Shown piece after piece: positions 2,454-18,388 of a stretch of DNA of 33,399 nucleotides (position 1 is its first letter; the number at the start of each line of letters is the position of its first letter). The stretch spans positions 1 through 33,399 of the forward strand of contig JAQUYA010000025.1 of the NCBI GenBank assembly GCA_028692055.1, given 5' to 3'. The notes beneath the pieces are model-generated. The model searched no databases and was not told the origin of the DNA. It was given only the letters and a program-made list of their open reading frames with translations. The stretch comes from Lachnospiraceae bacterium. Lineage in GTDB: Bacteria; Bacillota; Clostridia; Lachnospirales; Lachnospiraceae. A program made the position numbers and the translations under genes.

Positions 2454-3443
2454 TTAACAAATAATATCCAGATACTGCATTCTTACCAGTTCGTATTGCA
2501 CTATCACATTCCGTCCTGCTGCCCCTTCCATCAGTTGATGTAATTCCTTTACTGCTTCCTCTGATATATGTGCAAAGTTCTGTCTTACTGTATTCATCTG
2601 CTTACCCACGTATCCCATAAGCGTAATACCGTCAAACCCACATACCGGTCGAAAAATATCCATTTCTGTCAATGCTTTCATCGCTCCGATTGCCATTAGA
2701 TCCGACGCACATACTACTATATCTTTATGCTGGCCATATTGAAAGGTTAATTTTCTGGCTTCCAATTCGCTGAAATTTCCATACCGTATCAGCATAGTTA
2801 GGTTCAATTCCCGCACCAGTTTCTCCATTCCCTTCAGTCTTTCGTCTGTCACATATCCATTTTTCTTTCCGGCTATATATAACACACGTTTTGCATTATT
2901 TTGGAGAATCGTCCTTTTTGCAATATCATATTGTGCCCTCTTATGGTCAATCCATACCGAAGATGTTGTTGCATTTACAATCGGTGCATCTACCAGCACT
3001 ATTTTAAATTTTTCAGCTTCAATCAATTGCTGTAATATCACATCGTCCTTCGATATCCCGCAGATAATGATTCCTGCAATATTCTGTGATAAAAAATATC
3101 GGGTGATTTCCTCGTAGCTCATATCCTGTATCATGGAAAAAAACACTGTAACCAGGTCAAGATTATATTCCTTTGCCTGTCGAATTGCGCCTGCCATATA
3201 TTGCATCCCAATCTCATCAATTGCCTGCGTTTGCGTATTCAGATTCATCAGCAATGCAATTCTTCCCGATTTCTTAGAAGAAAGAGCCGCCGCAATCGCA
3301 TTTGGTACAAATCCTAATTCGGCAATTGCCTTATTTACTTTTTTCTTTGTTTCACTGCTGACATTCGGATAGTTGTTCAAGACTTTGGATACCGTGGATA
3401 TTGCTACTCCCGCATGACTTGCCACATCTTTAATTGATACCAT
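2454..3443 (-). CDS. LacI-family transcriptional regulator
   Basis: A DNA-binding regulator of 329 aa. The N-terminal LacI helix-turn-helix (VSIKDVASHAGVAISTVSKVL, residues about 2-22, followed by the hinge helix near residues 45-57) precedes a periplasmic-binding-protein-like effector domain. I chose the ATG at 3443 because AAGGG lies 9 bases upstream and it begins exactly at the HTH; a reading from TTG at 3515 would add 24 unconserved residues. It sits between an oxidoreductase gene and glgP, all on the same strand. The palindrome in the glgP promoter about 20 bases beyond its stop makes glgP a likely target. Its leader holds two copies of an unusual hairpin module and a possible seven-residue leader peptide. 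The effector sugar is unknown. Confidence 0.92.
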   Translation of the reverse strand: MVSIKDVASHAGVAISTVSKVLNNYPNVSSETKKKVNKAIAELGFVPNAIAAALSSKKSGRIALLMNLNTQTQAIDEIGMQYMAGAIRQAKEYNLDLVTVFFSMIQDMSYEEITRYFLSQNIAGIIICGISKDDVILQQLIEAEKFKIVLVDAPIVNATTSSVWIDHKRAQYDIAKRTILQNNAKRVLYIAGKKNGYVTDERLKGMEKLVRELNLTMLIRYGNFSELEARKLTFQYGQHKDIVVCASDLMAIGAMKALTEMDIFRPVCGFDGITLMGYVGKQMNTVRQNFAHISEEAVKELHQLMEGAAGRNVIVQYELVRMQYLDIIC

Positions 3444-3445
3444 AT

Positions 3446-3469
3446 TTATTTGCCCTTCGTTCTTATCAT
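3446..3469 (-). CDS. Possible leader peptide MIRTKGK upstream of the LacI-type gene
   Basis: An ATG at 3469 lies 7 bases after the GGG of the hairpin module and opens a seven-codon frame (MIRTKGK) ending in TAA. The stop is only 2 bases from the regulator's ATG, and the regulator's Shine-Dalgarno (AAGGG) lies inside this frame. Translation of the leader would therefore directly affect initiation on the regulator. It is too short to support by coding statistics, so this remains a proposal. Confidence 0.3.
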   Translation of the reverse strand: MIRTKGK

Positions 3470-3474
3470 TTTTA

Positions 3475-3500
3475 TTCCCATCTGCGTGCTTTAGCACGCG
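3475..3500 (-). ncRNA. Hairpin-AGATGGGA module, copy 1
   Basis: On the minus strand the stem GCGTGC/GCACGC with loop TAAA is followed at once by AGATGGGAATAAAA and then ATG. Two other copies in the window (3549-3573 and 13043-13067) share the tail but not the stem sequence. Here the tail would act as the ribosome site of the leader peptide. Confidence 0.5.
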
Positions 3501-3548
3501 TACAATCAAAACCAATGTGAAATAATTGTCAAATCATTTCACTCTTAT

Positions 3549-3573
3549 TCCCATCTGTGACCTTTGGTCGCAG
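3549..3573 (-). ncRNA. Hairpin-AGATGGGA module, copy 2
   Basis: The minus-strand stem TGCGACC/GGTCACA, with loop AAA and one G-U pair, is followed by AGATGGGAATAAGA and then GTG. That GTG opens a frame of only two codons (GTG AAA TGA). The element begins 3 bases after the oxidoreductase stop, so it lies between the oxidoreductase and LacI-type genes. Confidence 0.5.
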
Positions 3574-3575
3574 AA

Positions 3576-4715
3576 TTATATAGTCAATGCCGCTTCCTCG
3601 TCTGCCTGCAAATATTCCTGATTTAAATAACCCTGAGGTAACGGAGGCATTTTTTCAAAGGTCGATTGTAAAATAATCGTCCGCTCCGTCAAATTACTCT
3701 TCGCAATACCATGCAATAATTCCAAAGCATGATATGCCATTTCTTTGTTTGCACGTGGTCGTCTTTGATTTTGAATCGCCCATGCCATTTCTGCTGCCCC
3801 AAGTCCTCTGCTATTATCGGAATATCCAAAGTTTCCCGGAAATACGATTGCTTCTGTCTGTCCTTTTCGCAACAGCCTGACTTCCCCACCAAATTCATTT
3901 GGATCAGACATATATATAACACCTTGTGTCCCATATAATGTTACATATGGTTTTTCTGGAAATACACTTTCCGAATTAAATTGCAGGCTTCCAATCACTC
4001 CATTTTCAAACAATATTGTTCCTGCAAGAATTCCTTCATTTTCAATCTGATATCTTTCATTAAAATTATCTTCACGCGGAAAAGGATGGATTCTTTCCGT
4101 AATACTGTTTTTCATCATACCATTTACTTTTTTTACGGGCCCCAAGATGGATAATAATGCTGTCACATAGTAAATGCCAAGATCAAATCCAATCCCCGCT
4201 CCTTTTCCCTTTAAGAAGGAAAATAACTCCGTTAAGGTTGCATAATCTCTATTTACTATTGCTGTACAGGAGGTCACTTCTCCAATCAGTCCACTTTCTA
4301 CCAGTTGTCTGGCTGTCTGAATAGAGGAACCCAAAAAGGTATCGGGTGCTACTCCCAAATAAACCCCCTTTTTGTCAGCCAGCTCGGATAGCTCCTTTGC
4401 TTCTGCTAATTCAACGGCAAATACTTTTTCTGTGTATACATGCTTTCCTGCTTCTATTAGTTGTTTGATTACTGCATAATGTGCTGATGGTGGTGTCAGA
4501 TTAACCACTAGTTCTATTTCATCACTTTCACATATTTCCTCTATCGTCATTGCCTTTATTCCAAATTGCTCTGCCTTACGCTTTGCCGATTCCATATGAC
4601 TGGCAGCGCAACCCACTACCTCTAAAATCTGAAACTTTTGCTGCATATTCTGAATATATATGTCACTAATATTTCCGCAACCTACAACTGCCGCCTTTAT
4701 TGCTTTAACCTTCAT
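3576..4715 (-). CDS. Gfo/Idh/MocA-family NAD(P)-dependent oxidoreductase
   Basis: A cytosolic sugar or inositol-type dehydrogenase of 379 aa. The N-terminal Rossmann fold begins AVVGCGNISDIYIQN, the nucleotide-binding glycine turn of this family. EKVFAV near residue 97 corresponds to the usual EKP lysine motif, and the C-terminal half has the alpha/beta substrate domain of the family. I start at the ATG at 4715 (AGGGAG, 10 bases upstream) rather than the TTG six bases earlier. It is the first gene of a co-directional set with the LacI-type regulator and glgP. That suggests a sugar substrate, but the sequence does not show which one. Confidence 0.88.
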   Translation of the reverse strand: MKVKAIKAAVVGCGNISDIYIQNMQQKFQILEVVGCAASHMESAKRKAEQFGIKAMTIEEICESDEIELVVNLTPPSAHYAVIKQLIEAGKHVYTEKVFAVELAEAKELSELADKKGVYLGVAPDTFLGSSIQTARQLVESGLIGEVTSCTAIVNRDYATLTELFSFLKGKGAGIGFDLGIYYVTALLSILGPVKKVNGMMKNSITERIHPFPREDNFNERYQIENEGILAGTILFENGVIGSLQFNSESVFPEKPYVTLYGTQGVIYMSDPNEFGGEVRLLRKGQTEAIVFPGNFGYSDNSRGLGAAEMAWAIQNQRRPRANKEMAYHALELLHGIAKSNLTERTIILQSTFEKMPPLPQGYLNQEYLQADEEAALTI

Positions 4716-4792
4716 TTGCAATAATCTCCCTTCTAATGTAGTGCCAATGATGTAAACCTGTTCACTTTTTTACATTCTAACAAATCGTATGC

Positions 4793-4834
4793 AAAAAAGG
4801 AACCATACATTGTTTAAAACAATGATATAATTCC
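4793..4834 (-). terminator. Terminator of the phosphofructokinase gene
   Basis: The minus-strand hairpin has the inner stem CATTGTTT/AAACAATG and the outer pairs GGAA/TTCC, and is followed by TTTTTT. It lies 60 bases beyond the pfp stop codon. Confidence 0.8.
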
Positions 4835-4894
4835 TTTTCTTGATATGATATTCAAATTTTCTATCTATTTTCTATCTTTTTTTCATCAATCTAC

Positions 4895-6553
4895 TTATTC
4901 CTGCTCAAGTGCAAGAGTTCTTGTTGTAATATCACATACTTCGGTTGGTCCGTAGTACTGAATAGCACCTGGATATACATAGCTTGTTTCAACAGACCAT
5001 TCTTCTCTATGTGCTTCGAAGAATTTAAATGGCTTGCCATCAAGTTCAACGAGTGCTTTTCTAATAACTGGTTTGTCTTCTCCGTGTCTTCTTTCCACGT
5101 TCATCATCTTCGTGATTGGCATACCACCGGCAACCCATTCACTTGCTGGAGCAGAAAGGTTCGATACTTTTGATAAATATCCATTATAACCATACTGAAT
5201 CAGCATAAATGCATTGTAGCCTAATGAGTAGCAGTAATCAGAATCAAAGTTAGATGGGAATGCACATCTTCCTTCATAACCGAAGAAGTGGTGAAGGGCA
5301 CCAAATTTTCCTTTGTATGTGCCTTTTTTCTTACGTTCTGCTAATTTATCTGCAACAAGCGCTGAGAATAATTTTTCAGATTCAATAAGAGAAACCTGTA
5401 CATTACCATGTGGATCTCTTTCCAGGAATAACTGTTGCTGGATTCCCTGTGGAAGAATTGCAAATACTGCCATGGATTCTTTGGAAAGACCCTGTTCAAT
5501 AAATGTATATTTTTCTCCCCATGTGGAAAGTGCGTTAAAGGTTTCTGCTTTGCTTCCTGCAAGAAGTTCATTGATTTCTCCAATTAATGCAGAGAATTCA
5601 GGAACAAATTCAACAACGCCTTCTGGAATAACTGCAACACCAAAGTTCATACCTTTTGCTGCTCTTTTTTCTACAGAATCAGCGATATAGTCTGCGATTT
5701 GTGAGAGTGACATCTTTTTCGCTGCAACTTCTTCTGAAATTAAGCAGATGTTTGGCTGTGTTTCAAGAGCACATTCCAAAGCTACGTGAGAAGCAGAACG
5801 ACCCATAACTTTGATAAAATGCCAGTATTTTTTAGCAGAGTTTGCATCTCTCTCGATGTTACCGATTAATTCACTATAGGTTTTTGTAGCCGTATCAAAA
5901 CCAAAGGAACACTCGATATCTTCATTCTTAAGGTCACCATCAATTGTCTTAGGACAACCGATAACCTGAACACCTGTATCTTTTGCTGCGAAATATTCAG
6001 CCAGTACAGCTGCATTTGTGTTGGAATCATCGCCTCCGATGATAACAATAGCAGTAATGCCATGTTTCTTGCATACATCTGCTGCAATTGCAAACTGTTC
6101 ATCTGTTTCCAGTTTTGTTCTGCCGGAACCAATGATATCAAATCCGCCTGTATTTCTGAACTCATTAATATAGCTATCATCAAAAATCAGATAATCGTCT
6201 TCTACAAGACCACTTGGACCATTTTTGAAGCCATAAAGAACATTTTCCTTATTCGTAGCTTTTAATGCATCGTATAATCCACAAACAACATTGTGTCCAC
6301 CTGGCGCCTGTCCGCCTGAAAGAATAACACCTACTACCTGTTTCTTTGTAGCAGCTGTATTCTGTCCTTTTTCAAATGTAATTTCTTTCTTACCATATGT
6401 GTTAGGGAAAAGAGCTTTGATCTTATCCTGATCCGCTACGCTCTGTGTTTCTTCGCCTTCTTTAACACCGATTTCTGTAATACCATTTCTGAGCATTCCC
6501 GGAAGCTTTGGAGTATACTCATATCTAGCTTTTTGTAATGGTGAATAATTCAT
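4895..6553 (-). CDS. pfp: Diphosphate-fructose-6-phosphate 1-phosphotransferase (PPi-PFK, long form)
   Basis: Phosphorylates fructose 6-phosphate with pyrophosphate in place of ATP, reversibly, in the cytosol. The 552-aa length and the motifs GGDDSNTNA and PKTIDGDLK are the PPi-type signatures; ATP enzymes have GGDGS and PGTIDND at those places. The glycine-rich [15 protein letters not shown] loop, [14 protein letters not shown] and the C-terminal [12 protein letters not shown] block are also typical of the long, plant-beta-like class. The ATG at 6553 has AAAGGAGA 6 bases upstream. It has its own promoter (6598-6626) and terminator (4793-4834), so it is monocistronic. This enzyme fits with the two phosphorylases of the window in an ATP-sparing glycolysis. 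Confidence 0.95.
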
Positions 6554-6597
6554 ATTTTGTCTCCTTTGCATTATCTAAACTTAAACCTACATCTTAG

Positions 6598-6626
6598 ATT
6601 CTAAGGCATTCTTTTGAAAATGTAAA
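6598..6626 (-). promoter_or_regulatory. Promoter of pfp
   Basis: Minus-strand TTTACA (6621-6626) and TAGAAT (6598-6603) are separated by 17 bases. The transcript would have a leader of about 40 bases. Confidence 0.65.
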
Positions 6627-6654
6627 CTATAAAAAGCCATTTTTTCTTCCTTTT

Positions 6655-7599
6655 TTAAAAAAGTGTTAAATATACAAAATATACTGCATAGACCGCGAGC
6701 ATAAATATTCCACCACTTCTTTTCAGCGTTCTGTCCTTTACAACACAGATAAATAGAATAACCGCCGCCACAATTGCCATAATGGTGTCATAGACAAAAT
6801 TAGAGGCAAAGGAAATTGGTATAATCAGTGCTGCTGTTCCTACTACAAACAGAATATTAAAAATATTACTTCCTACAATATTTCCAATTGCAATATCTGT
6901 CTTTCCCTTAATGCCAGCAGTTACCGAAGTAATTAATTCTGGAAGTGAGGTACCAAATGCCACGATGGTCAGTCCTATTAGACGTTCGCTCATGCCAAAA
7001 GCCTTTGCAATGCTGCTTGCACTGTCTACTGTCACATCACTGCCCCATACGATGAGTCCCATACCAATTGCGGTTAAGAATAATAATTTACCGATACTGT
7101 CTTTTTTAGAGTCCTCAGGTAGGTCTTCCATTGGCATATCTCCTGATTTCGCCATGCGAAATAAATAAGCCAGAAATAGAATCATAAACACCCAGAAAAT
7201 CGCACCATCGATTCTGCCAACGGAGTGTCCGGCGACTCCAAGTCCCAACAGAAGTACTGTAACGACAACAACAAATGGAATTTCATATTTTAAAGTATTC
7301 TTTTGAATGGATAACGGTTTGATTAATGCGGTAATCCCAAGAATCAATAAAATATTCATAATATTGCTGCCAACCACATTACCAATCGTCAATTCTGCAC
7401 TGCCTTTTATGGCTGCACTAATACTAATCGCCGCTTCCGGTGCACTGGTTCCAAATGCTACAATGGTAAGCCCAATGATAATCTGTGGAATACCAAAGCA
7501 GTCTGCAATACCCGCTGCACCTTCGACAAACCAGTCTGCCCCCTTTACCAGCATTGCAAACCCTACTACTAATAAAAAAATCTGTACTATAATACTCAT
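6655..7599 (-). CDS. CaCA-family calcium/sodium (cation) antiporter, YrbG type
   Basis: An inner-membrane cation exchanger of 314 aa with about ten hydrophobic segments in two homologous halves. Each half carries the alpha-repeat signatures: IVAFGTSAPEAAISISAA and IGNVVGSNIMNILLILG in the first, IVAFGTSLPELITSVTAG and IGNIVGSNIFNILFVVG in the second. These hold the acidic and asparagine ligands for the ion. The ATG at 7599 has AAAGGAGAA upstream. The gene lies directly behind a yybP-ykoY manganese riboswitch with a terminator, so its expression should rise when Mn2+ is high. Family annotation alone would say Ca2+/Na+; the riboswitch suggests that Mn2+ export is its real or additional role (inference). 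Confidence 0.92.
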   Translation of the reverse strand: MSIIVQIFLLVVGFAMLVKGADWFVEGAAGIADCFGIPQIIIGLTIVAFGTSAPEAAISISAAIKGSAELTIGNVVGSNIMNILLILGITALIKPLSIQKNTLKYEIPFVVVVTVLLLGLGVAGHSVGRIDGAIFWVFMILFLAYLFRMAKSGDMPMEDLPEDSKKDSIGKLLFLTAIGMGLIVWGSDVTVDSASSIAKAFGMSERLIGLTIVAFGTSLPELITSVTAGIKGKTDIAIGNIVGSNIFNILFVVGTAALIIPISFASNFVYDTIMAIVAAVILFICVVKDRTLKRSGGIFMLAVYAVYFVYLTLF

Positions 7600-7626
7600 T
7601 TTATTTTCTCCTTTAAGTGTACACGC

Positions 7627-7685
7627 AAAAAAAGGAACGAGTCCTTTTGGTACACAAATATAGTGTGTACCAAAAGTCTCGTTCC
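7627..7685 (-). terminator. Riboswitch-controlled terminator
   Basis: The long minus-strand hairpin pairs GGAACGAG with CTCGTTCC and TTTTGGTACACA with TGTGTACCAAAA, and ends in TTTTTTT. Its 5' arm contains the CTTTTGG that also closes the aptamer's first stem. Aptamer folding and termination are therefore mutually exclusive. Confidence 0.92.
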
Positions 7686-7763
7686 CATTGTATCAAACAG
7701 GGATGTAACCACCGCTTACATGCGGGAGATTGTTGACTACATCAGCTAACTACTCCCTTTTGG
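7670..7763 (-). ncRNA. yybP-ykoY manganese riboswitch aptamer
   Basis: On the minus strand the closing stem CCAAAAG/CTTTTGG surrounds the conserved yybP-ykoY elements: GGGAGTAG after the 5' strand, AGTCAACA with TCTCCCGC, the GGTGGTTACATCCC arm, and ACGAGAC at the 3' end. In this class (established knowledge) Mn2+ joins the two coaxial legs and switches expression on. Here it would prevent the overlapping terminator and allow the antiporter gene to be read. The identification is by motif; a covariance search would confirm it. Confidence 0.92.
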
Positions 7764-7772
7764 ATTAAACCG

Positions 7773-7802
7773 AATATAGCATACTTCCACTCTAAGAGTC
7801 AA
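7773..7802 (-). promoter_or_regulatory. Promoter of the riboswitch-antiporter unit
   Basis: Minus-strand TTGACT (7797-7802) and TATATT (7773-7778) with an 18-base spacer. The -35 box overlaps the stop codon of the upstream hydrolase gene. Transcription would begin just before the aptamer's first stem. Confidence 0.75.
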
Positions 7803-8934
7803 TTACTTTTTGATTTATCTTATCCTTATTTTCATTTATGGTTAGTAACTGTTTTGCCCCCATACGCATAAATTGTTTTAACATTTTCCATAATATTTTT
7901 CGCGTTTCTTCGTCCTGCTCCCTGGTCGCTGCCATAATCTGGCGAAAAACCTTCTTCCAATCCGCGATTACTTCTGTTGCGTCTGTCATCTGTGATGTGT
8001 GAATGATATCAAAAATTATATTTACCAGCTTCTCTCGTGCGGCATCATCCATATTTTGAATCCATTCATTCAATGTTTTATCCATGAGATAGGCTGCCCT
8101 GTCAACTTCCTTCAGATATTGGAAGTTTCCTCTTTTTACAATCCAGGAAAATGGGTCATGCTGTAGGATACCGTTTTGCGAACTGCGAATCACCTGATAT
8201 TCTTCCTGATTTTCCAATAGCATTCCTATAATGGAGGATTGCGGAATGATTTTCTTTATTCTATGCGCAATTTTCAGATATCCCTCGTCTTCCAGAAAAT
8301 CTTCCTTGAACCCTGGGCCATCCAGACTATAAATCCTGCGTATCCGCTTCTGCATATCTTCCTTCATATGCATCGCTGCATATACTGCCACATTTCCCCC
8401 TTTGGAATGACCACCCATATAGAATTTTCCCTTTTGAGGCAATGCCGGAGTTATTTTTGTCATGTATTCCACTGCCCGTTCCTGTGCAGGTACTGGGCTT
8501 AAAAATGCCATATTGAAATCTTCCTTCCACCCAATCAGCGTTTCATCCGTTCCACGAAATGCAATAAATGGACAGCATTCTTCCAATAGGAAAATCATCG
8601 CTGCAAACTGTGTTTCCTTCTCAGGCTCTACCAGATTTTCATAATAAACCATCTGCGTATTTCCAAAACGTTTGCTGCCTGCTGCCTCTTTCAATAGCTG
8701 CATATTGCTCTTCACGTCCAATAAGCCTTCAAATAAGGCATCGTACTGCGTATCACTCAGCTCATTGATTTGCCGTAATGTAATCTTTTTTTGTATCTCA
8801 TCTACGCCGGAAACGCAATCATCAAATTTCAAATAGGACAGCTCGGATAATACCAGGCTGTCCACAGAATTAAATACCTTTTCCAGAAAGGTATTGTTCC
8901 CATATTCTTTTATATAATCAATGATATTCCCCAT
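7792..8934 (-). CDS. Mbeg1-like (DUF2974) alpha/beta hydrolase
   Basis: A predicted cytosolic serine hydrolase of 380 aa. The nucleophile elbow GGHSKGGNVA puts the serine near residue 177. IAFRGTDETLIGWKEDF earlier in the chain is the lipase-like block of the Mbeg1/DUF2974 family, and SLDGPGF follows the elbow. There is no signal peptide or membrane span. The ATG at 8934 has GGGAG 8 bases upstream and overlaps the end of the FUSC-type gene by 17 bases, so the two are translationally coupled. Family members are common in Clostridia, but their substrate is not established. The pairing with a membrane exporter does not settle it. Confidence 0.85.
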   Translation of the reverse strand: MGNIIDYIKEYGNNTFLEKVFNSVDSLVLSELSYLKFDDCVSGVDEIQKKITLRQINELSDTQYDALFEGLLDVKSNMQLLKEAAGSKRFGNTQMVYYENLVEPEKETQFAAMIFLLEECCPFIAFRGTDETLIGWKEDFNMAFLSPVPAQERAVEYMTKITPALPQKGKFYMGGHSKGGNVAVYAAMHMKEDMQKRIRRIYSLDGPGFKEDFLEDEGYLKIAHRIKKIIPQSSIIGMLLENQEEYQVIRSSQNGILQHDPFSWIVKRGNFQYLKEVDRAAYLMDKTLNEWIQNMDDAAREKLVNIIFDIIHTSQMTDATEVIADWKKVFRQIMAATREQDEETRKILWKMLKQFMRMGAKQLLTINENKDKINQKVIDS

Positions 8935-9940
8935 TTAACTTACTCCCATGATTCGTACCTCCAAAGGTGACATTCCTGAAGGTATTGAAAAAAAGCTGAA
9001 ATAAATAACTGGAAACTATTGCAATTGCCACTCCGATAAGGTTCGATATCACACGTAGCACCATCGCATCCTTTGCCGAAAATAATAATACCGCCGCGAT
9101 TAAGGCACTGAATGAATTATAGATTGTTTTAATAAAATAAGAGGTAATAAACATGGAACCGAATCCAGCAAGCAAAATTATTATCTGATGATACTCTGTC
9201 GGAATCCACCATTCAAAAACCATGAAGAAAAGTATTGCTCCCAGTATCGTCGCCGGTACTCTGCTCATTCTCCGTAGGCGATGTTCCTCCTCTAACGGTG
9301 TCACTAACGATAGGATAACCAGATTTATCCACATAATTCTAGGATAGTGCAATAAATTTCCCACAAAGGTAACCATACATATAGTAAGTGTCAATTTGAT
9401 ATACCATTGTGTTCTTGTCGAATGAATATCAATTTCCTGAAATACATCTTTTAACGTTCTTTTATATTCCTTCTTTCGGTTCATAACATAATACATGCCC
9501 ATTACTATCATAGCACTTATCAATAAGCTTACAACACGTTTTCCATAAATAACACCACTTACATCATAGCCCTGACACATCAGATAACCCATCATAAAAG
9601 CTACATGGTTGCTCATCGTAATATTATGACTGGATAATACTAAAATGCTAAAAATGCAGATAACGTTTACCACCAATCCAATATAGGGATTCATCAGTGA
9701 CAGCTTTGGTCCAATCGCTACAATTAAGAACAATACCAGTATCATCGGTGTCGCCTGTTTTGTCTGATATCCCATATTATTCTGCATAAACATTAAAAAT
9801 GCAATTTAAAAAACCACACCTACCACACTGTTATCCGTTCCAAAGAAATGATTATGCAGGGACATATAACCCACACAAAATAGAAATACTGGTAATTTTA
9901 TCAATATGGATTTCCCAATTACTTTTAACTGACTATTCAT
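8918..9940 (-). pseudogene. FUSC/aromatic-acid-exporter-like membrane protein, interrupted by in-frame TAA
   Basis: A predicted multi-pass membrane protein of the FUSC type, with hydrophobic segments grouped at the N-terminal and C-terminal thirds around a hydrophilic middle. The natural start is the ATG at 9940 (GGAG, 10 bases upstream). The reading frame then runs MNSQLKVIGKSILIKLPVFL and on to GVVF, meets TAA at codon 45 (9806-9808), and continues without any frame change as IAFLMFMQNNMGYQT through to 8918. A single base change therefore splits an otherwise intact 340-codon gene. The downstream part could be made as 291 aa from the ATG at 9793, but no ribosome site precedes it and the first membrane segment would be lost. 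It may be a recent loss of function or a sequence error. Its promoter and leader palindrome are still present. Confidence 0.75.
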
Positions 9941-9966
9941 CGCTTGTTTTCTCCAATCTTTATATT

Positions 9967-9996
9967 ATTTGGAAATAAATTCATTTATTTCCAAAT
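9967..9996. repeat. Perfect 14-bp inverted repeat in the FUSC-gene leader
   Basis: ATTTGGAAATAAAT and ATTTATTTCCAAAT are separated by 2 bases. The repeat lies between the start of transcription (about 10008) and the ribosome site, where a repressor operator for an exporter gene would be expected. It could also fold as an A/T-rich RNA hairpin, but no U-tract follows. Confidence 0.7.
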
Positions 9997-10014
9997 TTAG
10001 ACTTCTAATCGGCG

Positions 10015-10043
10015 ATTATAGCATGGTTAAAAAATCTTGTCTA
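10015..10043 (-). promoter_or_regulatory. Promoter of the FUSC-type gene / hydrolase unit
   Basis: Minus-strand TAGACA (10038-10043), 17-base spacer and a perfect TATAAT (10015-10020). It lies in the gap after the ABC-2 permease genes. Confidence 0.75.
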
Positions 10044-10101
10044 TAACGTATATTTCTAAAATTTTCCTTAAATTTCTATATTCAAAATCAAATGATTATA
10101 T

Positions 10102-10818
10102 TCAAAGCTCCAGTTTCTTCTGAAATTTTTTATATAGAACGGTTATCCATGCAAGTTCCATCACAATAGCCGGAACTATATATATGTTCTGATTACTCAT
10201 TTGCATTTTCATAATCCAATACGTTGGCAGTATCCCTGCAACCACCCCAATTGGTTTTTGAATAAAGAAAGCTGCCAGTAATCCAAAGATTGAAAACCCG
10301 CTTAGCTTTGTTAATGCCATTCCTTCCACCTTGTTATGAGCAAATCCTACCACTAGCAAAGAAACAATAAGTCCCATAAAGCTACTTAAAATAGAGATAC
10401 TTATTACAAGTATACTGCTTAATTTTGTCAATGAGCATACATATAGAAGTACCATATCATATATGGCCGATAGTATCATGGATAGTCCCAGCCGTGACAT
10501 GAGATAGCCAGACTTACCGAGTGGAGTCACGATTAAAAACCGCGCAATTCCATTATCAAATTCCTCCAGCATAACCATGACCCCTGCAAAAGCAAACATC
10601 ATAGGAGTCATGCTTGCTAATAACAGGTCGAAAATCGCATAATACGGTACCAGTAATGTTGTAAATCCCAACTTTGAACACAGTACCTTATCCAATACGG
10701 GTATTCCAAAACGGAATAATACGCCCATTAAAACAGGAACAAACAGGCAAACCGACATCATATAATCCCGCCAGATTTCTTTCATAAACTGATTATATGC
10801 AGATAGCACCTTTTTCAT
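10102..10818 (-). CDS. ABC-2-type exporter permease, second subunit
   Basis: An integral membrane protein of about 238 aa with six predicted hydrophobic segments, resembling the permeases of fluoroquinolone-export ABC systems. It is the last gene of an operon of TetR regulator, ATPase and two permeases. The reading frame is open from a GTG at 10845, which would overlap the previous stop by 7 bases. ATGs at 10830 and 10818 are also possible. I prefer 10818 (MKKVLSAYNQF) as a normal membrane-protein N-terminus, with GAAGGG 13 bases upstream, but the start is uncertain. The transported substrate cannot be read from the sequence. Confidence 0.82.
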   Translation of the reverse strand: MKKVLSAYNQFMKEIWRDYMMSVCLFVPVLMGVLFRFGIPVLDKVLCSKLGFTTLLVPYYAIFDLLLASMTPMMFAFAGVMVMLEEFDNGIARFLIVTPLGKSGYLMSRLGLSMILSAIYDMVLLYVCSLTKLSSILVISISILSSFMGLIVSLLVVGFAHNKVEGMALTKLSGFSIFGLLAAFFIQKPIGVVAGILPTYWIMKMQMSNQNIYIVPAIVMELAWITVLYKKFQKKLEL

Positions 10819-10838
10819 TTTAATAACCATGCCCTTCT

Positions 10839-11510
10839 CTAACACTCGGAAAATGCTTTTTTTGTTTTATATTTACATAATGTATAAAGAATAATAATCC
10901 ATGCAAGGAGAATTCCCACACATAATATTCCGATATTTTCTTCCCCTTTGATTAATGCAATCGCTGCTATCCCCGGATGAAACAAAATTCCCCTCCCTCG
11001 GATTACGCCAAATAAATATAATAATGCAGGAGCAAAAATACCCAGTTCAAAGGGTACTGTAGCAAGTAAAAATTGGTTCAGACTTGTTATCCTTATTGCA
11101 ACAAGCAGACCACATAAGGAAAAAATAATAGACGACAATCCAATTCCAAGTGTAGCAGAAAACAAATGCGGTATTTTCGCATATATGCCCAGCATCATTC
11201 CAATTAGTGTTCCTGTCACTACCATAGACAGTACTTTTGCTGTAATATACTCTGACACTTTCATGGGGGCTACTGCCAGAGAGCAGTTAATTCTTTGACT
11301 CTTTTCCAAAAGAATGACCGCTCCCATAAAAAATAATCCCATGGCTGCCGGGTCCGTGAATATTAAAATAATTGCAACTGTCTGTCGAACTGCCATTGGA
11401 ATCGCCGCCAGCAGACCTATATATACCGCTATTAAAATCACATAAATTGCAAAAATGCCATATTTATACTGAAAACGGAAATCTCCTTTGATTAATTCTA
11501 TCTGTCTCAC
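10839..11510 (-). CDS. ABC-2-type exporter permease, first subunit
   Basis: A membrane protein of 223 aa with about six hydrophobic segments. I start it at the GTG at 11510. This overlaps the ATPase stop (GTGA), with AGGAG 6 bases upstream inside the end of the ATPase gene, which gives translational coupling. The longer reading to 11642 would only re-read the ATPase gene in another frame. It pairs with the next permease as the two membrane halves of a heterodimeric exporter driven by the 11507-12370 ATPase. No substrate-binding protein is present, as expected for export. Confidence 0.85.
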   Translation of the reverse strand: MRQIELIKGDFRFQYKYGIFAIYVILIAVYIGLLAAIPMAVRQTVAIILIFTDPAAMGLFFMGAVILLEKSQRINCSLAVAPMKVSEYITAKVLSMVVTGTLIGMMLGIYAKIPHLFSATLGIGLSSIIFSLCGLLVAIRITSLNQFLLATVPFELGIFAPALLYLFGVIRGRGILFHPGIAAIALIKGEENIGILCVGILLAWIIILYTLCKYKTKKAFSEC

Positions 11511-12370
11511 GCTAATCTCCTTCCCGTAACTTCCATGAATATATCGCCCAGATTTGGTTCCTCTGAATGAATTGTCAAAATCTTTCCTTCCCGCATTAAA
11601 TTTTGTAGTTGCACGTTTTGTCCCGTTTCTTTCAGCAGGCATTGGTCTGTGACTTCAGCTCCATTATTCAGATAGCTGTAATGAAGCTTATTGGTTCCTT
11701 TTTCCATAATTAGATGATGCGGGGAATCCAATGCTTTTATTTTTCCCTCTACAATAAATGCAACTCTGTCACACAGTTCTGCTGCATCCTCCATATTATG
11801 CGTGGTTATAATAATTGTCTTTCCTTTTTGTTTTTCTGTGATTATCATATCTTTCATCAGGCGGCTATTCGTTGGGTCCAATCCACTCGTTGGTTCATCC
11901 AGAAATAAAATATCTGGATTATGTAATAAGGCTTTTATAAAATTTAACCGGCTTTTCATTCCCTTTGAAAAATCTGACACCTTTTTGTCTGCATCACGCA
12001 GTAATCCTACTTGTTCCAATAATTCTTCCATTCTTTTTTCTCTTGCTTCTTTTCCTCTATTTTCATAAAGGGACGCAAAAAACTGCAGATTCTCACGTGC
12101 CGTTAATTTCTCGTATAAACTTGGAAATTCAAAATCAATTCCTATCTTTTCATAAAAGGAATTATCCCTTTCTCTCACTTCTGTCCCATCTACCTGTACG
12201 CTTCCCTTATATCCGGTTAATAATCCAATTAATATTTTCTGTAACGTACTTTTTCCTGCACCAGATGGTCCCAGAAATCCAAAAATTTCTCCTTTCTGAA
12301 CTTCAAATGATATATCCTCCATAAATACCTTTTTCGTATAACTAAATGATACATTTTCAACTCGAATCAT
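11507..12370 (-). CDS. ABC exporter ATP-binding subunit
   Basis: A peripheral ATPase of 287 aa. Walker A is GPSGAGKST (residues about 33-41), the signature is FSKGMKSRL, Walker B is DILFLDEPTSGLDP, and the switch histidine lies in TTHNMEDAAELCDRVAFI. The C-terminal 70 residues are an accessory extension. The ATG at 12370 has AGGCAGG just upstream. It sits 77 bases after the TetR gene and is coupled to two ABC-2-type permeases. The arrangement matches drug/antibiotic-type efflux units such as the Rv2686c-Rv2688c class. The role in drug or lipid export is inferred from this context. Confidence 0.93.
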   Translation of the reverse strand: MIRVENVSFSYTKKVFMEDISFEVQKGEIFGFLGPSGAGKSTLQKILIGLLTGYKGSVQVDGTEVRERDNSFYEKIGIDFEFPSLYEKLTARENLQFFASLYENRGKEAREKRMEELLEQVGLLRDADKKVSDFSKGMKSRLNFIKALLHNPDILFLDEPTSGLDPTNSRLMKDMIITEKQKGKTIIITTHNMEDAAELCDRVAFIVEGKIKALDSPHHLIMEKGTNKLHYSYLNNGAEVTDQCLLKETGQNVQLQNLMREGKILTIHSEEPNLGDIFMEVTGRRLA

Positions 12371-12420
12371 AGAAACCTGCCTTTCTTACTATCCTAAAAT
12401 TATTCTTCACACTTCCAAAC

Positions 12421-12451
12421 ATGAATTGCTTTTGCGGCACAAGCAATTCAT
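12421..12451. repeat. 11-bp inverted repeat between TetR gene and ABC operon
   Basis: ATGAATTGCTT and AAGCAATTCAT are separated by 9 bases, and the repeat starts over the TetR stop codon. No U-tract follows on the transcript, so it is not a standard terminator. It could be an operator for the TetR protein, or an RNA hairpin that sets the ratio of regulator to transporter mRNA. Confidence 0.55.
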
Positions 12452-13035
12452 ATGAGGAGTTGCATTACAATTCCTCGCAGCATGATCCTGATTGCCTCAT
12501 GAAAATGTGCACCCATCTCCCGCTCATACAAGAGCAATCCAAAAACTCCACGAAGTGCCGCACTGTATGGTCCGGTTTCCATCTTTCGCATATTAGGGAC
12601 TATCTTCTTTAAGGAAAGAAGCATATCTTCATCATGTTCCATATGTCCCTGTACATACGTTTCCGGCATTTTTCGCATTAATACTTCAAGTTCTCCACTT
12701 GCAATTAATTTTGCAAGTCCTGTTTCTTCGACAGACAATATACATTGGTAAAAAATCTCTGTTAATTCTTCTACCCCTACATTTCCTGACTTCTTAATAA
12801 TCTTTTGTATCATTTCCTGTTCTATTTTTTCATGCCACTGCATCACCACTTCCATTAGCAGCATTTCCTTGGATTCATAAAACAGATAAAAAGTTCCCTT
12901 GGGTATCTTTGCCAACCGTACCAGTTCATCCACGGTTGTTTTTTTTATTCCATAGGTACCCATACACTCTGCTGCATAGTGAAGCAATTCTGCTTTTATA
13001 ATTTCCTTTTCTTTTTCCGAGTATTGCTTTGGCAT
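12448..13035 (-). CDS. TetR-family transcriptional regulator
   Basis: A repressor-type protein of 195 aa. The N-terminal HTH (CMGTYGIKKTTVDELVRLA, then IPKGTFYLFYESKEMLLMEV) is the standard TetR pattern. The C-terminal helical ligand domain is variable. I start at the ATG at 13035 (MPKQYSEKEK), because GGGAG of a hairpin module lies 7-8 bases upstream; the longer reading to 13098 would run through that hairpin. It is first in line with the ABC exporter and presumably controls it. Its leader contains a perfect 22-bp palindrome at 13079-13100 and the hairpin module at 13043-13067. The effector is unknown. Confidence 0.9.
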   Translation of the reverse strand: MPKQYSEKEKEIIKAELLHYAAECMGTYGIKKTTVDELVRLAKIPKGTFYLFYESKEMLLMEVVMQWHEKIEQEMIQKIIKKSGNVGVEELTEIFYQCILSVEETGLAKLIASGELEVLMRKMPETYVQGHMEHDEDMLLSLKKIVPNMRKMETGPYSAALRGVFGLLLYEREMGAHFHEAIRIMLRGIVMQLLI

Positions 13036-13042
13036 TTTTAGC

Positions 13043-13067
13043 TCCCATCTGTGACGTTTGGTCACAT
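13043..13067 (-). ncRNA. Hairpin-AGATGGGA module, copy 3 (TetR ribosome site)
   Basis: The minus-strand stem TGTGAC/GTCACA, with loop CAAAC, is followed by AGATGGGAGCTAAAA and the TetR ATG. The GGGAG in the tail is the Shine-Dalgarno, so the stem stands directly against the ribosome site. See copies at 3475-3500 and 3549-3573. Confidence 0.5.
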
Positions 13068-13078
13068 ACAAATAAAGT

Positions 13079-13100
13079 GGTTGAAAGTTCTCTTTCAACC
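13079..13100. repeat. Perfect 22-bp palindromic site upstream of the TetR gene
   Basis: GGTTGAAAG and CTTTCAACC are separated by 4 bases. The site lies about 65 bases downstream of the predicted start of transcription and 44 bases before the TetR start codon. Size and symmetry fit a TetR operator (autoregulation); an RNA hairpin is the alternative. Confidence 0.6.
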
Positions 13101-13171
13101 TTCAGACCTTTCTGGTTTTTCTCATCCTGTAAAAGTGAATATACTATTTGACCAAATTTAACTTTATAGTC

Positions 13172-13200
13172 ATAATAAATCTTTCCTTTTCTTTTGTCAA
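13172..13200 (-). promoter_or_regulatory. Promoter of the TetR-ABC operon
   Basis: Minus-strand TTGACA (13195-13200), 17-base spacer and TATTAT (13172-13177). It implies a leader of about 130 bases containing the palindrome and the hairpin module. Confidence 0.8.
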
Positions 13201-13277
13201 CAAAAAAACAAATATAGAAAGACTCTATAGCACCTATTGTTTACAGATGCTTTGGAGAATTTCCATATTTGTTTTTT
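13201..13277 (-). terminator. Probable terminator of the YHYH gene
   Basis: A 13-bp perfect inverted repeat (AAAAAACAAATAT / ATATTTGTTTTTT) encloses about 49 bases that themselves hold the partial stem AGCATCT/AGGTGCT. On the minus strand the 3' arm ends in a T run. It separates the YHYH gene from the TetR promoter immediately downstream. Confidence 0.55.
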
Positions 13278-13299
13278 CGTTTTTATTTTTTATTATTCT

Positions 13300-14413: not shown

Positions 14414-14418
14414 AAAAG

Positions 14419-14498
14419 TGCGGATAACAGGAATCGAACCTGCACGGTCTCCCACTAGATCCTAAGTCTAGCGCGTCTGCCAGTTCCGCCATATCCGC
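14419..14498 (-). tRNA. tRNA-Leu (anticodon UAG)
   Basis: The acceptor GCGGATA/TATCCGC is perfect, with discriminator A. The anticodon arm GCTAGA-CTTAGGA-TCTAGT gives anticodon TAG (14462-14464). A long variable arm marks a class II tRNA and the T-arm GCAGGTTCGATTCCTGT is intact. CCA is not encoded. Confidence 0.96.
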
Positions 14499-14502
14499 GT
14501 AC

Positions 14503-14521
14503 CGTGGCTGAGTCAGCCACG
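14503..14521 (-). other. Leader hairpin between promoter and tRNA-Leu
   Basis: CGTGGCTGA/TCAGCCACG is a perfect 9-bp stem with a one-base centre. It lies between the -10 box and the tRNA 5' end, so it overlaps or closely follows the start of transcription. Confidence 0.5.
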
Positions 14522-14527
14522 AAAATT

Positions 14528-14557
14528 ATTATAACCTTATCCTCATTCCCTTGTCAA
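14528..14557 (-). promoter_or_regulatory. Promoter of tRNA-Leu
   Basis: Minus-strand consensus TTGACA (14552-14557) and TATAAT (14528-14533), 18 bases apart. Confidence 0.85.
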
Positions 14558-14583
14558 GTCCCAAAGAGAATCTATTTACCATT

Positions 14584-16056
14584 CTATTTATTATCAAATA
14601 CAGCTTCGCCATTTTTTGTCATTTCGGCGATTTTCTTTTGTGTACCATCCAAGGTTGCCAGTAATTGTTTTGATAATGCAATCGCTTCCTGGTACAGTTC
14701 CTTTGCAGCCGTTTCATCCTTTTGTCTTACCTTGTCCACTACAGACTGCCCCATCGTATGGAACGTGTTATGCAGAGTTCCTATCTTTTGCCAGTCTGAT
14801 TTCACATGCTCATTTTGTACCTGCAAAGCATTATAAAAATGTCCAAAGGCACATTTTTTTGGGTTTACCTGTAATGGAAGTATATACATTTCATTTACAA
14901 TGCGTGCTAATACCTTCAGCCATTCGCCATGTGCATCTTTTGCCTTTTGCAGTACCTCAATAATTTCGTTATTTGTAACTGCTCTCTTACCACTACGCAG
15001 ACCAGCAAACATTTCCTCTGTGATTTCGGATAACTGGTCATCTATTTTTGCAATTTGTCTTGCAAAAGCAACACTTTCATCCGCCTCTTTGCTGACACTT
15101 TGTGTCATTTCCGCAAGTCTTTGTGCATCCTGACTGGTTGATTCCATTGCACGATTTACTTCATTCGTTGAAAACTTAATATGTTCCATTGAAGAATTGA
15201 TACTTCCTACCTGTGTTACTATATTATGTAATTTACCAATGTTGTCTGTAACACTAGTAGATACAACTTCTATCTTTTCCCCCATCTTGCCTGTTGATAC
15301 AATCGAACGCTCCAGACTTTCTTTTCCTTCTGCTGCCGCCGTGCTGATATCGGTAACAAATTCTCGCATACCCTGAAGATTCTCTTTTGTATCATCTGCC
15401 AAAGCACGCACTTCCTCTGCAACCACGGCAAAGCCTTTTCCATGCTCTCCTGCTCTTGCCGCTTCAATTGCAGCATTTAAAGCAAGTAAATTGGTTTGGG
15501 AAGCAATCCCCTGTACACTTTCCACTATCTTTTCTACTTCCGATGCAAGAGATACCAGTTGTGCTATTTTTTCTCCCATGATATCGGTATCTTCTAATAC
15601 ATTACCCTTTAATGCCTGTACTTCATTTAATAACCTTTTACTTTCATCATTCTTTGTTACCAGTGTTTCAGCGTCCTCATTCAAGCGTCCTAATGTTTCC
15701 GCAGTAGATTCCACAGTTTCATTTACCTCATTCATACTGGCCGTTGTTTCTTCAATAATGGCTAAATTGGCTTCACTTAAGCCCTCTAATTCTCTTGCAA
15801 AGCTCATTAACTCATTTGATATATGTGCCATTCCCACATCAAAGCTACTTATACTACTCGTTGCAGCCATTAAATTTTTAGCCGCCTTTGACATACGAAT
15901 CTCATTGGTAACCAATTGCTCCATTTGCGCAATTACCTTGCTGTGAACTGGATGACAGCTTGTTGGACAGTCTGAACACGTTTCACCCTTTATTTTATGT
16001 TCTACATATTCGAGAAAATTTTCCATTTCTCCACAATTACGCTTCTTAAACATCAT
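14584..16056 (-). CDS. Soluble methyl-accepting chemotaxis protein with C-terminal CZB domain
   Basis: A cytoplasmic chemoreceptor of 490 aa with no membrane segment or signal peptide. The conserved signalling tip, from GIASQTNLLALNAAIEAARAG on, lies near residues 183-221 and is flanked by long coiled coils. The C-terminal part has the chemoreceptor zinc-binding (CZB) pattern: H376 in AHGEW, C402 in CAFGHFY, and H429 and H433 in LHNTFH. This is the His3-Cys zinc site known from CZB proteins. The N-terminus adds the cluster CSDCPTSCHPVH (C27, C30, C34, H35, H38), a possible second metal or redox site. The ATG at 16056 has AAAGGGG 8 bases upstream. CZB receptors elsewhere sense zinc or oxidants such as HOCl (established); a similar input is inferred here. 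Confidence 0.92.
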   Translation of the reverse strand: MMFKKRNCGEMENFLEYVEHKIKGETCSDCPTSCHPVHSKVIAQMEQLVTNEIRMSKAAKNLMAATSSISSFDVGMAHISNELMSFARELEGLSEANLAIIEETTASMNEVNETVESTAETLGRLNEDAETLVTKNDESKRLLNEVQALKGNVLEDTDIMGEKIAQLVSLASEVEKIVESVQGIASQTNLLALNAAIEAARAGEHGKGFAVVAEEVRALADDTKENLQGMREFVTDISTAAAEGKESLERSIVSTGKMGEKIEVVSTSVTDNIGKLHNIVTQVGSINSSMEHIKFSTNEVNRAMESTSQDAQRLAEMTQSVSKEADESVAFARQIAKIDDQLSEITEEMFAGLRSGKRAVTNNEIIEVLQKAKDAHGEWLKVLARIVNEMYILPLQVNPKKCAFGHFYNALQVQNEHVKSDWQKIGTLHNTFHTMGQSVVDKVRQKDETAAKELYQEAIALSKQLLATLDGTQKKIAEMTKNGEAVFDNK

Positions 16057-16152
16057 CTTTAGCGCCCCTTTCGATAAATATCATTTTATGATATTCCACA
16101 TGAGTTAATAGTACCATATTTTATCTAATTCGACTAGTAAAAGTGTCATCAT

Positions 16153-17514
16153 TTAAATTCTTTTTATGACCCTTTCAAAAATCCGAAACAGGAAAAATAA
16201 GCTCATTGCCAAAGACATTAATTCTGCAATAGGAAAAGCCCACCATACCAAATGCAATCCACCAAATTTTGCCAGTAAATATGCCGCTGGTAGTAAAACA
16301 ACCAGCTGTCTTGCTATAGATACTAGCATACTGTATACACCATTTCCAAGCGCCTGGAAGGTAGAAGAACAGATGATACAGAATCCTGCAAAAATAAAAC
16401 TTACGCTAATAATGCGAAGTGCCGGTATTCCTATCGTGAGCATTTCGCCTGATGCACTAAAGAAGCCCAGTAAAATACCTGGCATTATTTGAAAAATGCA
16501 AATACCGGCTAGCATAAGCACCATTGCATACAACATGCTAAGCTTTATTGCTTTTACCAGGCGCTCCTTTTTCCTTGCCCCATAATTATACGCAACAATT
16601 GGTACTAATCCATTATTCATACCAAACAAGGGCATGAAAAAGAAACTTTGCAACTTATAATATACCCCCAGAACAGCGGTTGCCGTAGCGGTAAAATGAA
16701 TTAAAATGCGATTCATACCATAGATGGTTATAGAACCAATTGCCTGCATAATAATAGACGGAACCCCAACAGCATAAATATGTTGAATAATCTTTCTGTC
16801 TGGGCGAAATTTTTTCATACAGATTTGAATCTCATGATTTTTCTTTTTATTAATTATAATTGCCATAATTCCTGCTATGATTTGTCCTGTTACTGTAGCT
16901 AATGCAGCACCTGACACACCTAATTTGGGAAAACCAAGAAGTCCAAATATCATAATCGGATCTAATATAATATTTATAATAGCACCTGTTCCCTGCGTTA
17001 TCATGGTATAGATTGTCTTACCTGTTGATTGCAATAACCGTTCAAAAGTCATCTGCGTAAATAGCCCAAAAGAACAAGCCATGCATAGTGTTAAATAACT
17101 GTTTCCTGCTTGTAATATAGTCGGATTATCCGTCTGTGTATGGAAGAAAATATTGGTTCCAAAGATACCAATCAATAAAAACACTAAATAACTTAATATT
17201 GTAAGAAATACCGCATTATCAGCTGTTTTATTTGCCCTGTCATAATTTTTCTCACCAAGCGCCTTTGACAATACCGCATTTACACCTACACCGGTTCCCG
17301 CACCAACCGCAATCGCCAGCATCTGAATCGGAAACGCAAGGGATACTGCCGTTAATGCTTCTTCACTCACCATGGCTACAAAGATACTATCCACAATATT
17401 GTAAAGTGCCTGCACAAGCATTGATATCATCATAGGCAATGACATCGATATCAGCAACTTATCTACCGGCATAACTCCCATTTTATTTTCCTGCTGTTTA
17501 TTTTCCTGACTCAT
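16153..17514 (-). CDS. MATE-family multidrug/cation exporter
   Basis: A membrane exporter of 453 aa with about twelve hydrophobic segments in two homologous halves. The MATE pattern is clear: PVDKLLISMSLPMMISMLVQ with ALYNIVDSIFVA at the start, a PKLGVSGAALATVTGQ loop in the middle, and NNGLVPIVAYNYGARK in the second half. I start at the ATG at 17514 because it gives the family's usual length and N-terminus. An in-frame ATG at 17610 has a good GAGG 8 bases upstream and would add 32 mostly basic residues, so the start is not certain. Substrates are typically drugs or organic cations, exchanged for Na+ or H+; this one is unknown. Confidence 0.92.
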   Translation of the reverse strand: MSQENKQQENKMGVMPVDKLLISMSLPMMISMLVQALYNIVDSIFVAMVSEEALTAVSLAFPIQMLAIAVGAGTGVGVNAVLSKALGEKNYDRANKTADNAVFLTILSYLVFLLIGIFGTNIFFHTQTDNPTILQAGNSYLTLCMACSFGLFTQMTFERLLQSTGKTIYTMITQGTGAIINIILDPIMIFGLLGFPKLGVSGAALATVTGQIIAGIMAIIINKKKNHEIQICMKKFRPDRKIIQHIYAVGVPSIIMQAIGSITIYGMNRILIHFTATATAVLGVYYKLQSFFFMPLFGMNNGLVPIVAYNYGARKKERLVKAIKLSMLYAMVLMLAGICIFQIMPGILLGFFSASGEMLTIGIPALRIISVSFIFAGFCIICSSTFQALGNGVYSMLVSIARQLVVLLPAAYLLAKFGGLHLVWWAFPIAELMSLAMSLFFLFRIFERVIKRI

Positions 17515-17643
17515 CGTATGCATATCCTCTTTCTTCCTATTTATAATATGTAAACGCTGCTGTTCGCCTATTTTATTATTCCGTACCTTCCGGATCCAGT
17601 TCCTTTGCATAATTTTTTCCTCGTTTCCTTTCTGTTTATAGCG

Positions 17644-17672
17644 AAAAAAAAAGTACTGATTTTCAGTACTTT
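17644..17672 (-). terminator. Terminator of the tRNA operon
   Basis: Minus-strand stem AAAGTACTGA/TCAGTACTTT with a 3-base loop, continuing into TTTTTT. It lies just after the tRNA-Lys tail repeats. Confidence 0.88.
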
Positions 17673-17681
17673 CTTAAAAGC

Positions 17682-17862
17682 GAGACATCGGAGATTCAGA
17701 ACCCACGGGGTTCGACTCCTTCCACGTTTTCTCGATAGTGAGACATCGGGGATTCAGAACCCACGGGGTTCGACTCCTTCCACGTTTTCTCAATAGTGAG
17801 ACATCGGGGATTCAGAACCCACGGGGTTCGACTCCTTCCACGTTTTCTCAATAGTGAGACAT
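17682..17862 (-). repeat. 58-bp tandem repeats derived from the tRNA-Lys 3' end
   Basis: Three units with an exact 58-bp period (starting at 17682, 17740 and 17798), followed by the tRNA-Lys gene, whose own end starts the fourth repeat at 17856. Each unit carries the last part of the tRNA (GAATCCCCGATGTCTC, with one change in the outermost copy). A spacer with the hairpin GAACCC/GGGTTC and GAGAAAACGTGGAAGG is also present. The T-loop is altered (TTCTGAAT in place of TTCGAAT), so none can be a tRNA. The 340 bases between the MATE start and tRNA-Lys hold only these repeats and the terminator. Confidence 0.93.
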
Positions 17863-17927
17863 CGGGGATTCGAACCCCGGACAACTTGATTAAAAGTCAA
17901 GTGCTCTACCAACTGAGCTAATATCCC
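17855..17927 (-). tRNA. tRNA-Lys (anticodon UUU)
   Basis: Acceptor GGGATAT/ATGTCTC, anticodon loop CTTTTAA giving TTT, and a perfect T-arm CCGGGGTTCGAATCCCCG. It is the last tRNA of the operon and the source of the downstream tail repeats. Confidence 0.96.
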
Positions 17928-17954
17928 ATTCATTATATGTGTCTGCACACAAAA

Positions 17955-18026
17955 CAGGGCTAGCAAGATTCGAACTTGCGAATGCAGCAGTCAAAGTGCT
18001 GTGCCTTACCGCTTGGCGATAGCCCT
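17955..18026 (-). tRNA. tRNA-Gln (anticodon UUG)
   Basis: Acceptor AGGGCTA/TAGCCCT with discriminator G, and anticodon loop CTTTGAC giving TTG. The weak first pair (A-U) and G73 are normal for glutamine tRNAs. Confidence 0.95.
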
Positions 18027-18046
18027 AAAAAAACTCACAATATAAG

Positions 18047-18121
18047 GGTGGGTAAAGGGATTCGAACCCTTGACCTTCGGAACCACAATCCGACGCGATA
18101 ACCAACTACGCTATACCCACC
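18047..18121 (-). tRNA. tRNA-His (anticodon GUG)
   Basis: Acceptor GTGGGTA/TACCCAC, with the extra 5' G (18121) opposite C73, the histidine identity pair. Anticodon loop TTGTGGT gives GTG. Confidence 0.96.
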
Positions 18122-18192
18122 ATGGATATACGGTTTCTCTTTCTCTAAAATATCTATCAGATACCTGAGTCTGAGTAATCCAAGATAATAAA

Positions 18193-18266
<74 letters not shown>

Positions 18267-18269
18267 ATA

Positions 18270-18340: not shown

Positions 18341-18388
18341 ATTTTGGCTCTGATAAAATCAGAACTTTCAAATTTTGAGGTTAAAAAA

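Follow-up and report, generated by a model that had tools for sequence, protein, structure and literature searches.

A hairpin repeat in the gap between Shine-Dalgarno sequence and start codon of many Lachnospiraceae genes: a probable mobile element with a ribosome-binding-like tail

In insertion sequences of the IS200/IS605 type, the target at the left flank resembles the right end of the element. The 5′ stabiliser leaders of Firmicutes mRNAs such as aprE place a stable hairpin close to the Shine-Dalgarno (SD) sequence, and are leaders of single genes. The repeat family described here came to light in a 33,399-nt stretch of a Lachnospiraceae genome (contig JAQUYA010000025.1, hereafter the window) and was followed through that genome (G000; 2.97 Mb in 180 contigs), four relatives in the genus (G001-G004) and the wider family. 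It differs from aprE-type leaders in being a dispersed family with turnover by presence and absence, and its nearest kinds are the REP/REPIN and BOX/RUP repeats. In many unrelated genes the repeat separates the SD sequence from the start codon; there it has probably spread as a non-autonomous mobile element whose own 3′ end would serve as a replacement ribosome-binding site (RBS).

With the IS200/IS605 elements and the mini-elements derived from them, the repeat has in common subterminal hairpins and a left-flank target like its right end; it differs in having no transposase gene inside the unit and no Y1 family in G000 or G004. The REP/REPIN sequences with TnpA-REP (RAYT), as described in PMC6006769 (see also PMC3116915), are likewise short hairpin repeats with many copies, found in pairs or clusters, likely to be non-autonomous and divided into subfamilies within one genome. 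REPs carry a GTAG/GTGG foot 5′ of the hairpin, form inverted pairs and generally lie between genes. In contrast, the present units are arranged as direct repeats, terminate in an SD-like tail and stand at start codons; the foot of their second hairpin is mostly GTAC or related and is variable (alignment A2). BOX, RUP and SPRITE of Streptococcus pneumoniae are also small folded interspersed repeats of 5′ regions that are transcribed with operons (PMC3049150), but their sequence is different, and the available text of that paper describes neither confinement to the gap between SD and start nor a supplied RBS. Literature searches, several of which were narrow and which test absence only weakly, found no description of a repeat confined to this gap. 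We place the element among the short interspersed hairpin repeats.

A full repeat is 60-75 bases long and recurs in tandem at steps of 62 bp (contig C15), 65 bp (C41, C65, C172) or 70 bp (C143). Its order is hairpin 1, starting with GTGAAA or TTGAAA, a linker of the TTGATTTGTACG type, hairpin 2, the tail AGATGGGA, 6-7 bases and the start codon. Hairpin 1 takes the form GGTTGAAAG-AAAT-CTTTCAACC, GTGAAATAATTTGACAATTATTTCAC or relatives of these, and hairpin 2 that of GCGACC-AAA-GGTCGC or GCGTGC-TAAA-GCACGC. The tail is followed by about five bases (mostly GCTAA or ATAAA) and one or two more before the start codon, and the right end of the element is GGGAGCTAA or GGGAATAA. The initial annotation of the window had drawn the unit as a hairpin with its tail; both parts stand, but the unit is longer, with a further hairpin upstream of two of the three copies it listed.

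Those three copies belong to a large family. The tail AGATGGGA alone is at chance level in the window (37 matches with at most one mismatch against 31 expected), as it would be if the copies were a chance similarity of ordinary leaders. That explanation is nevertheless scarcely credible, since the tail with its hairpin context (AAANNNNNNAGATGGGA) has 65 exact places in G000, the 26-base hairpin 1 of one subfamily has 15, at 14 of which it adjoins hairpin 2, and whole units are present or absent at pgk and groEL. With at most one mismatch AAANNNNNNAGATGGGA has 253 places in G000, against 80 for the reversed pattern. A covariance model (R1) was built from 62 copies, 60 from G000 and two from G004, one copy (L018) having been dropped from a set of 63. 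It matched (E ≤0.1) at least 111 places in G000, at least 63 in G004, at least seven in G001, at least five in G002 and at least one in G003, these being lower bounds because 150 candidates were scored per genome. The search that the initial annotation had proposed returned many matches with covariation before starts, at genes of diverse type, and the fixed tail holding an SD-like sequence recurs in many more copies, which mostly stand immediately ahead of start codons. Similarity between copies at unrelated genes in G000 and G004 reaches 92%, and is lower for many, compared with 73-80% for orthologous stretches of the window between genomes, which suggests recent spread or exchange, or constraint. 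Above the Rfam gathering score there were only tRNAs in the window and nothing in seven element-bearing stretches, and viral contigs gave no match to one strict element pattern.

The columns of model R1 cover the start codon, so that its matches lean to starts, and the fair counts of placement are those from start-free patterns, with a start counted as an ATG, GTG or TTG opening at least 50 codons or a frame running off the stretch. By this measure 49 of 62 distinct copies in G000, and 33 of 35 in other records (two records of G004), lie 4-9 bases before an open-frame start. Eight of the remaining 13 in G000 are internal to tandems. The other five are a chance match (L031), the groEL copy (ATG at 12 bases), the LacI copy of the window, L033, which has a later SD and start downstream, and L009, which has another unit 135 bases further on. 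When 150 of the 187 model matches in the genus were examined singly, 126 had a start at 4-9 bases, 12 were tandem-internal and 12 were neither; an ATG at exactly 6-7 bases followed 109 of the 150, against 1.7% of random positions. A start or following unit was missing from 6 of 110 matches with an exact tail, against 6 of 40 with a changed tail, a slight indication that tails are preserved where they are used. A single rule identified hairpin 1 in 59 of the 150, and the remainder are short forms, decayed copies or copies missed by that rule.

The invaded genes are diverse and not mainly regulators. In G000, 83 downstream proteins match 148 Pfam families, the commonest of which account for three each; TetR_N accounts for two, and the proposed tie to leaders of transcription regulators is not supported as the main reading. 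NCBIfam assignments above cut-off include GroEL, adenylate kinase (adk), peptide deformylase, cysteine-tRNA ligase (cysS), PgsA and GalT, and the downstream phosphoglycerate kinase (pgk) has as its sole match a bifunctional PGK/TPI model, below cut-off.

The insert can be seen at orthologous sites. G003 is the closest of the four relatives (LacI 92% against 79-83%; also the GroEL N-terminus and most DNA matches of C41), though it has one model match. All eight element-bearing G000 genes for which a G003 orthologue was found (pgk, groEL, LacI, three genes in C101, the gene at C41:42734 and pgsA) lack the element in G003; two further C101 sites gave no G003 comparison. Upstream of the eight G003 starts, no hairpin with a AGATGGGA tail occurs within 200 bases, and an AGATGGG at -74 of G003 pgk lies in sequence common to G000, outside the element. 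At pgk, G003 reads GGAGGACATAAAAATG, whereas G000 reads GGAGGACATAA, then 63 bases of element, then AAATG. At groEL, AAATATCAGGAGG is common to both genomes and the element precedes the ATG only in G000; G003, G001, G002 and G004 have AGGAGG, 7-9 bases and ATG, with the element standing in between in G000. At pgk and groEL the older SD sequence survives, pushed upstream by the insert, by 63 bases in the case of pgk. In none of the four relatives does the LacI orthologue carry such an element within 200 bases upstream, and at an AraC-like gene in C101 the site is occupied in G004 by another subfamily and empty in G001, G002 and G003. At C41:42734 (L213/L275) the upstream gene reads into the element and apparently stops inside hairpin 1, and G003 has its own earlier stop.

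The same arrangement is seen more widely. Among 44 non-tandem long copies, an SD word of at least four bases lies upstream in 32, against 12 and four in two windows farther away, and this older SD peaks 6-8 bases before the first TTG or GTG of the element. AA is found at the left junction in 34 of the 44 (12.5% background), and junctions tend to read SD, about four bases, AA, resembling the element's own right end (GGGAGCTAA or GGGAATAA). No inverted repeats were seen at the insert ends; the AA or TAA on both sides may stem from duplication or belong to the element itself. At pgk and groEL it is the whole unit that is present or absent.

Stem pairing is strongly maintained. Over 63 copies (61 from G000, two from G004), 364 of 378 cells are paired, while 2000 shuffles of the arms gave 279 on average and never more than 307; each real copy was scored in the better of its two stem registers, which the shuffles retained. 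Across several genera, 48 distinct class-2 stems include 34 cells that have changed on both sides, against 9.7 in shuffles, at five of the six pairs. Alignment A3 was restricted to sequences with at least four of six pairs in one register (51 distinct), a choice that makes the percentage paired too high, and drops three sequences, L031 as a chance match and L022 and L049 for the other register. RNAalifold on a mixed alignment returned only three pairs because the two registers are mixed in it. Of five stretches folded as single sequences, two, each containing hairpin 1 in full, gave z of about -3, and the other three -0.2 to -1.3. The compensatory changes first noticed in the window hold on a genome-wide scale. 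They had been taken to argue for RNA rather than a DNA site; the folded single strand holds, and covariation is compatible alike with RNA and with single-stranded DNA.

The strong covariation in leaders is one ground for the reading offered first, a cis-acting regulatory RNA class in which a protein or small RNA would bind hairpin 2 and the AGATGGGA tail and control translation or mRNA stability across a regulon. The constant tail beside the start codon, the common architecture across genera and an element common to three species at adk also speak for it. We consider it improbable, because the 83 downstream proteins have no functional theme, few elements are kept at orthologues, near-identical copies stand at unrelated genes and units form tandem arrays. 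The only downstream G000 genes analysed that share the element with a sister-species orthologue are adk and one AraC-like gene, other candidates being paralogues of 24-35%, and all eight G003 orthologues lack the element. The small mobile repeat, offered originally as the second option, fits best. A regulatory side effect on downstream genes is possible. Two further roles for the sequence were tried and rejected: a switch in which the linker pairs with the tail and hides the SD, since native pairs were no better than swapped tails or shuffled linkers, and a translated N-terminal extension through the element, since insert lengths fall over all three frames (17, 16 and 15). At one G000 locus (L109, C142:5948) the sequence TTGACC-17-TATAAT, which we take to be promoter-like, lies just upstream of hairpin 2, and the mRNA could start there at hairpin 2 itself.

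For a mobile repeat of this kind, insertion would occur in one orientation, past a target consisting of an SD, about four bases and AA. Since this target resembles the right end of the element, every copy could in turn serve as the site for a further one, which would build up arrays. The enzyme that moves the element would be supplied from outside the unit. During transposition the hairpins may be recognised in single-stranded DNA form, and they may in addition shield the mRNA. As each copy ends in its own ribosome-binding-like sequence, an invaded gene would still be translated: ribosomes would bind the tail behind hairpin 2, upstream of the 6-7 bases that lead to the start codon, and the host gene would stay expressed. 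Mobility, target recognition and ribosome use of AGATGGGA are what we infer here; the family, its folding, its placement, its tandem units and the whole units inserted at pgk and groEL are observed. The evidence leans, by a small measure, towards a class of transposable element that targets the translation start, recognising an SD-like sequence and AA, inserting before the start codon, bringing its own RBS and stacking in arrays.

A more specific proposal is that the unit belongs to the REP or IS200/IS605 type and is mobilised in trans by a Y1 (HUH) transposase, having hairpins close to its ends, no clear target duplication and a target that is like its right end. The hairpin placement and the resemblance between left flank and right end agree with it, and the hairpin-plus-foot organisation recalls REP sequences as set out in PMC6006769. 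The high copy number of a short palindromic repeat in G000 and G004 is also REP-like. But there is no GTAG/GTGG foot, and the Y1 family (PF01797, IS200/IS605-type) has no match in G000, G001, G003 or G004 and one in G002, which has at least five copies, a search that would miss a transposase in a missing contig, one since lost or one of an unrecognised family. On this evidence the proposal is doubtful, a little more so than that of a regulatory RNA.

The missing transposase also weighs against mobility as such, and several other observations count on the same side. Reverse transcriptase is no constant companion of the element, with four matches in G000, one in G004 and none in the copy-rich G127, which rules it out as a required partner. 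The A-rich junctions blur the exact ends of the element, and GGGAA-type tails are weak SDs by pairing. In addition, G000-G004 are drafts of 70-230 contigs, and adk carries the element in three species (G000, G001 and G002), as a conserved regulator would. In other genera 8 of 32 copies have no start within 9 bases, and in one genus (G283) four of five copies looked at have no start codon just downstream. Finally, G003 pgsA is without the AGATGGGA element but has its own two-hairpin leader before AGGAGG, and is therefore not a plain empty site.

The last two cases have features of their own. At three of the four start-less G283 copies (L169, L254 and L264) a second hairpin-like stretch, beginning TTGAAA, lies between the AGATGGGA element and the gene, which looks like the result of another repeat inserting at an equivalent position. 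The G003 pgsA leader (L288) consists of a hairpin, an A-rich linker, a hairpin GCACC-GGAT-GGTGC, GAGGAGGATAAA and ATG, the same layout in another sequence, and may represent another family of the same kind; no second leader of this type was present among 99 SD-start contexts of the fetched G003 stretches.

The element extends beyond the genus with the same architecture. In a strict screen of 299 genomes of the family at least nine pass, G000 included; only 20 candidates were scored in each, so the 290 without a match are weak evidence of absence. With 150 candidates scored, G127, from another genus, has at least 120 matches and five other genomes have at least 5-16. In the copies looked at from other genera, a start lies within 9 bases in 24 of 32. 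Among named genomes the motif occurs in 36 stretches of Lachnospiraceae, Anaerocolumna sp., Clostridium sp. or Clostridiales, with Clostridium sp. KNHs205 (NZ_JNLE01000003) among the carriers.

Within the window, the three copies first listed (3475-3500, 3549-3573 and 13043-13067) are all found at these positions, on the minus strand, with the hairpin-tail layout ascribed to them. All had been thought to end at start codons, which is true of 13043-13067, directly before the TetR start, and not of the other two, neither of which directly precedes a gene start. These two make up a tandem of two units, flanked by a Gfo/Idh/MocA-type gene and a LacI gene. Unit 1 (3543-3571, minus strand), recognised from the sequence, the open reading frame list and the genome-wide family, is a short form that starts a few bases past the stop codon (3576-3578) of the Gfo/Idh/MocA-type gene and comprises hairpin 2 (3557-3571), the AGATGGGA tail (3549-3556) and a spacer (3543-3548). 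The GTG that follows, once taken for a start codon, is the first triplet of unit 2. Unit 2, on the same strand, has hairpin 1 (GTGAAATGATTTGACAATTATTTCAC, 3517-3542, the 26-mer with 15 genome places), hairpin 2 (GCGTGC-TAAA-GCACGC, 3484-3499, from sequence and stem covariation) and its AGATGGGA tail (3476-3483). The ATG after unit 2, formerly read as a start codon, opens only a putative seven-codon frame (MIRTKGK, stop; 3446-3469, minus strand); the LacI-family regulator occupies 2454-3443 of the minus strand, with the start that matches its orthologues at 3441-3443. The bases after this ATG (ATGATAAGAACGA, 3457-3469) are identical at the unrelated C143 gene of G000 (L046), either by chance or as a copied flank.

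The third copy precedes the TetR-family regulator (12448-13035, minus strand, from the open reading frame list), which starts at the ATG at 13033-13035. On the same strand are its hairpin 1 (GGTTGAAAG-AGAA-CTTTCAACC, 13079-13100, from sequence and folding), its hairpin 2 (GTGAC-CAAAC-GTCAC, 13051-13065) and its AGATGGGA tail (13043-13050), 7 bases before the ATG. An AAAGG just upstream of the copy (13107-13111, minus strand), positioned as in other long copies, could be a leftover of an older SD, a weak indication from position. Elsewhere in the window, an imperfect palindrome with a 75% match to its own reverse complement lies upstream of the TetR leader (13199-13281), and seven minus-strand tRNA genes, six of them clustered, lie at 14418-18463. 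C101 also holds a copy (L211:3590-3757) of another dispersed repeat, some 170 bp long, which has many further copies in G000 at 73-90% identity.

Insertion just before a start codon would normally cut a gene from its ribosome-binding site. If the proposed reading is true, an element present about 100 times in one genome, including before groEL and pgk, and bringing a substitute site, would represent a new way for selfish DNA to live in dense genomes, with the invaded gene kept alive by a supplied RBS in a manner comparable to the splicing of introns and inteins. New translation signals could naturally arise from such an element, and its preference for this target would point to a mobilising enzyme yet to be characterised. 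The element is to be expected in genome annotation and in RNA-motif surveys of Lachnospiraceae.

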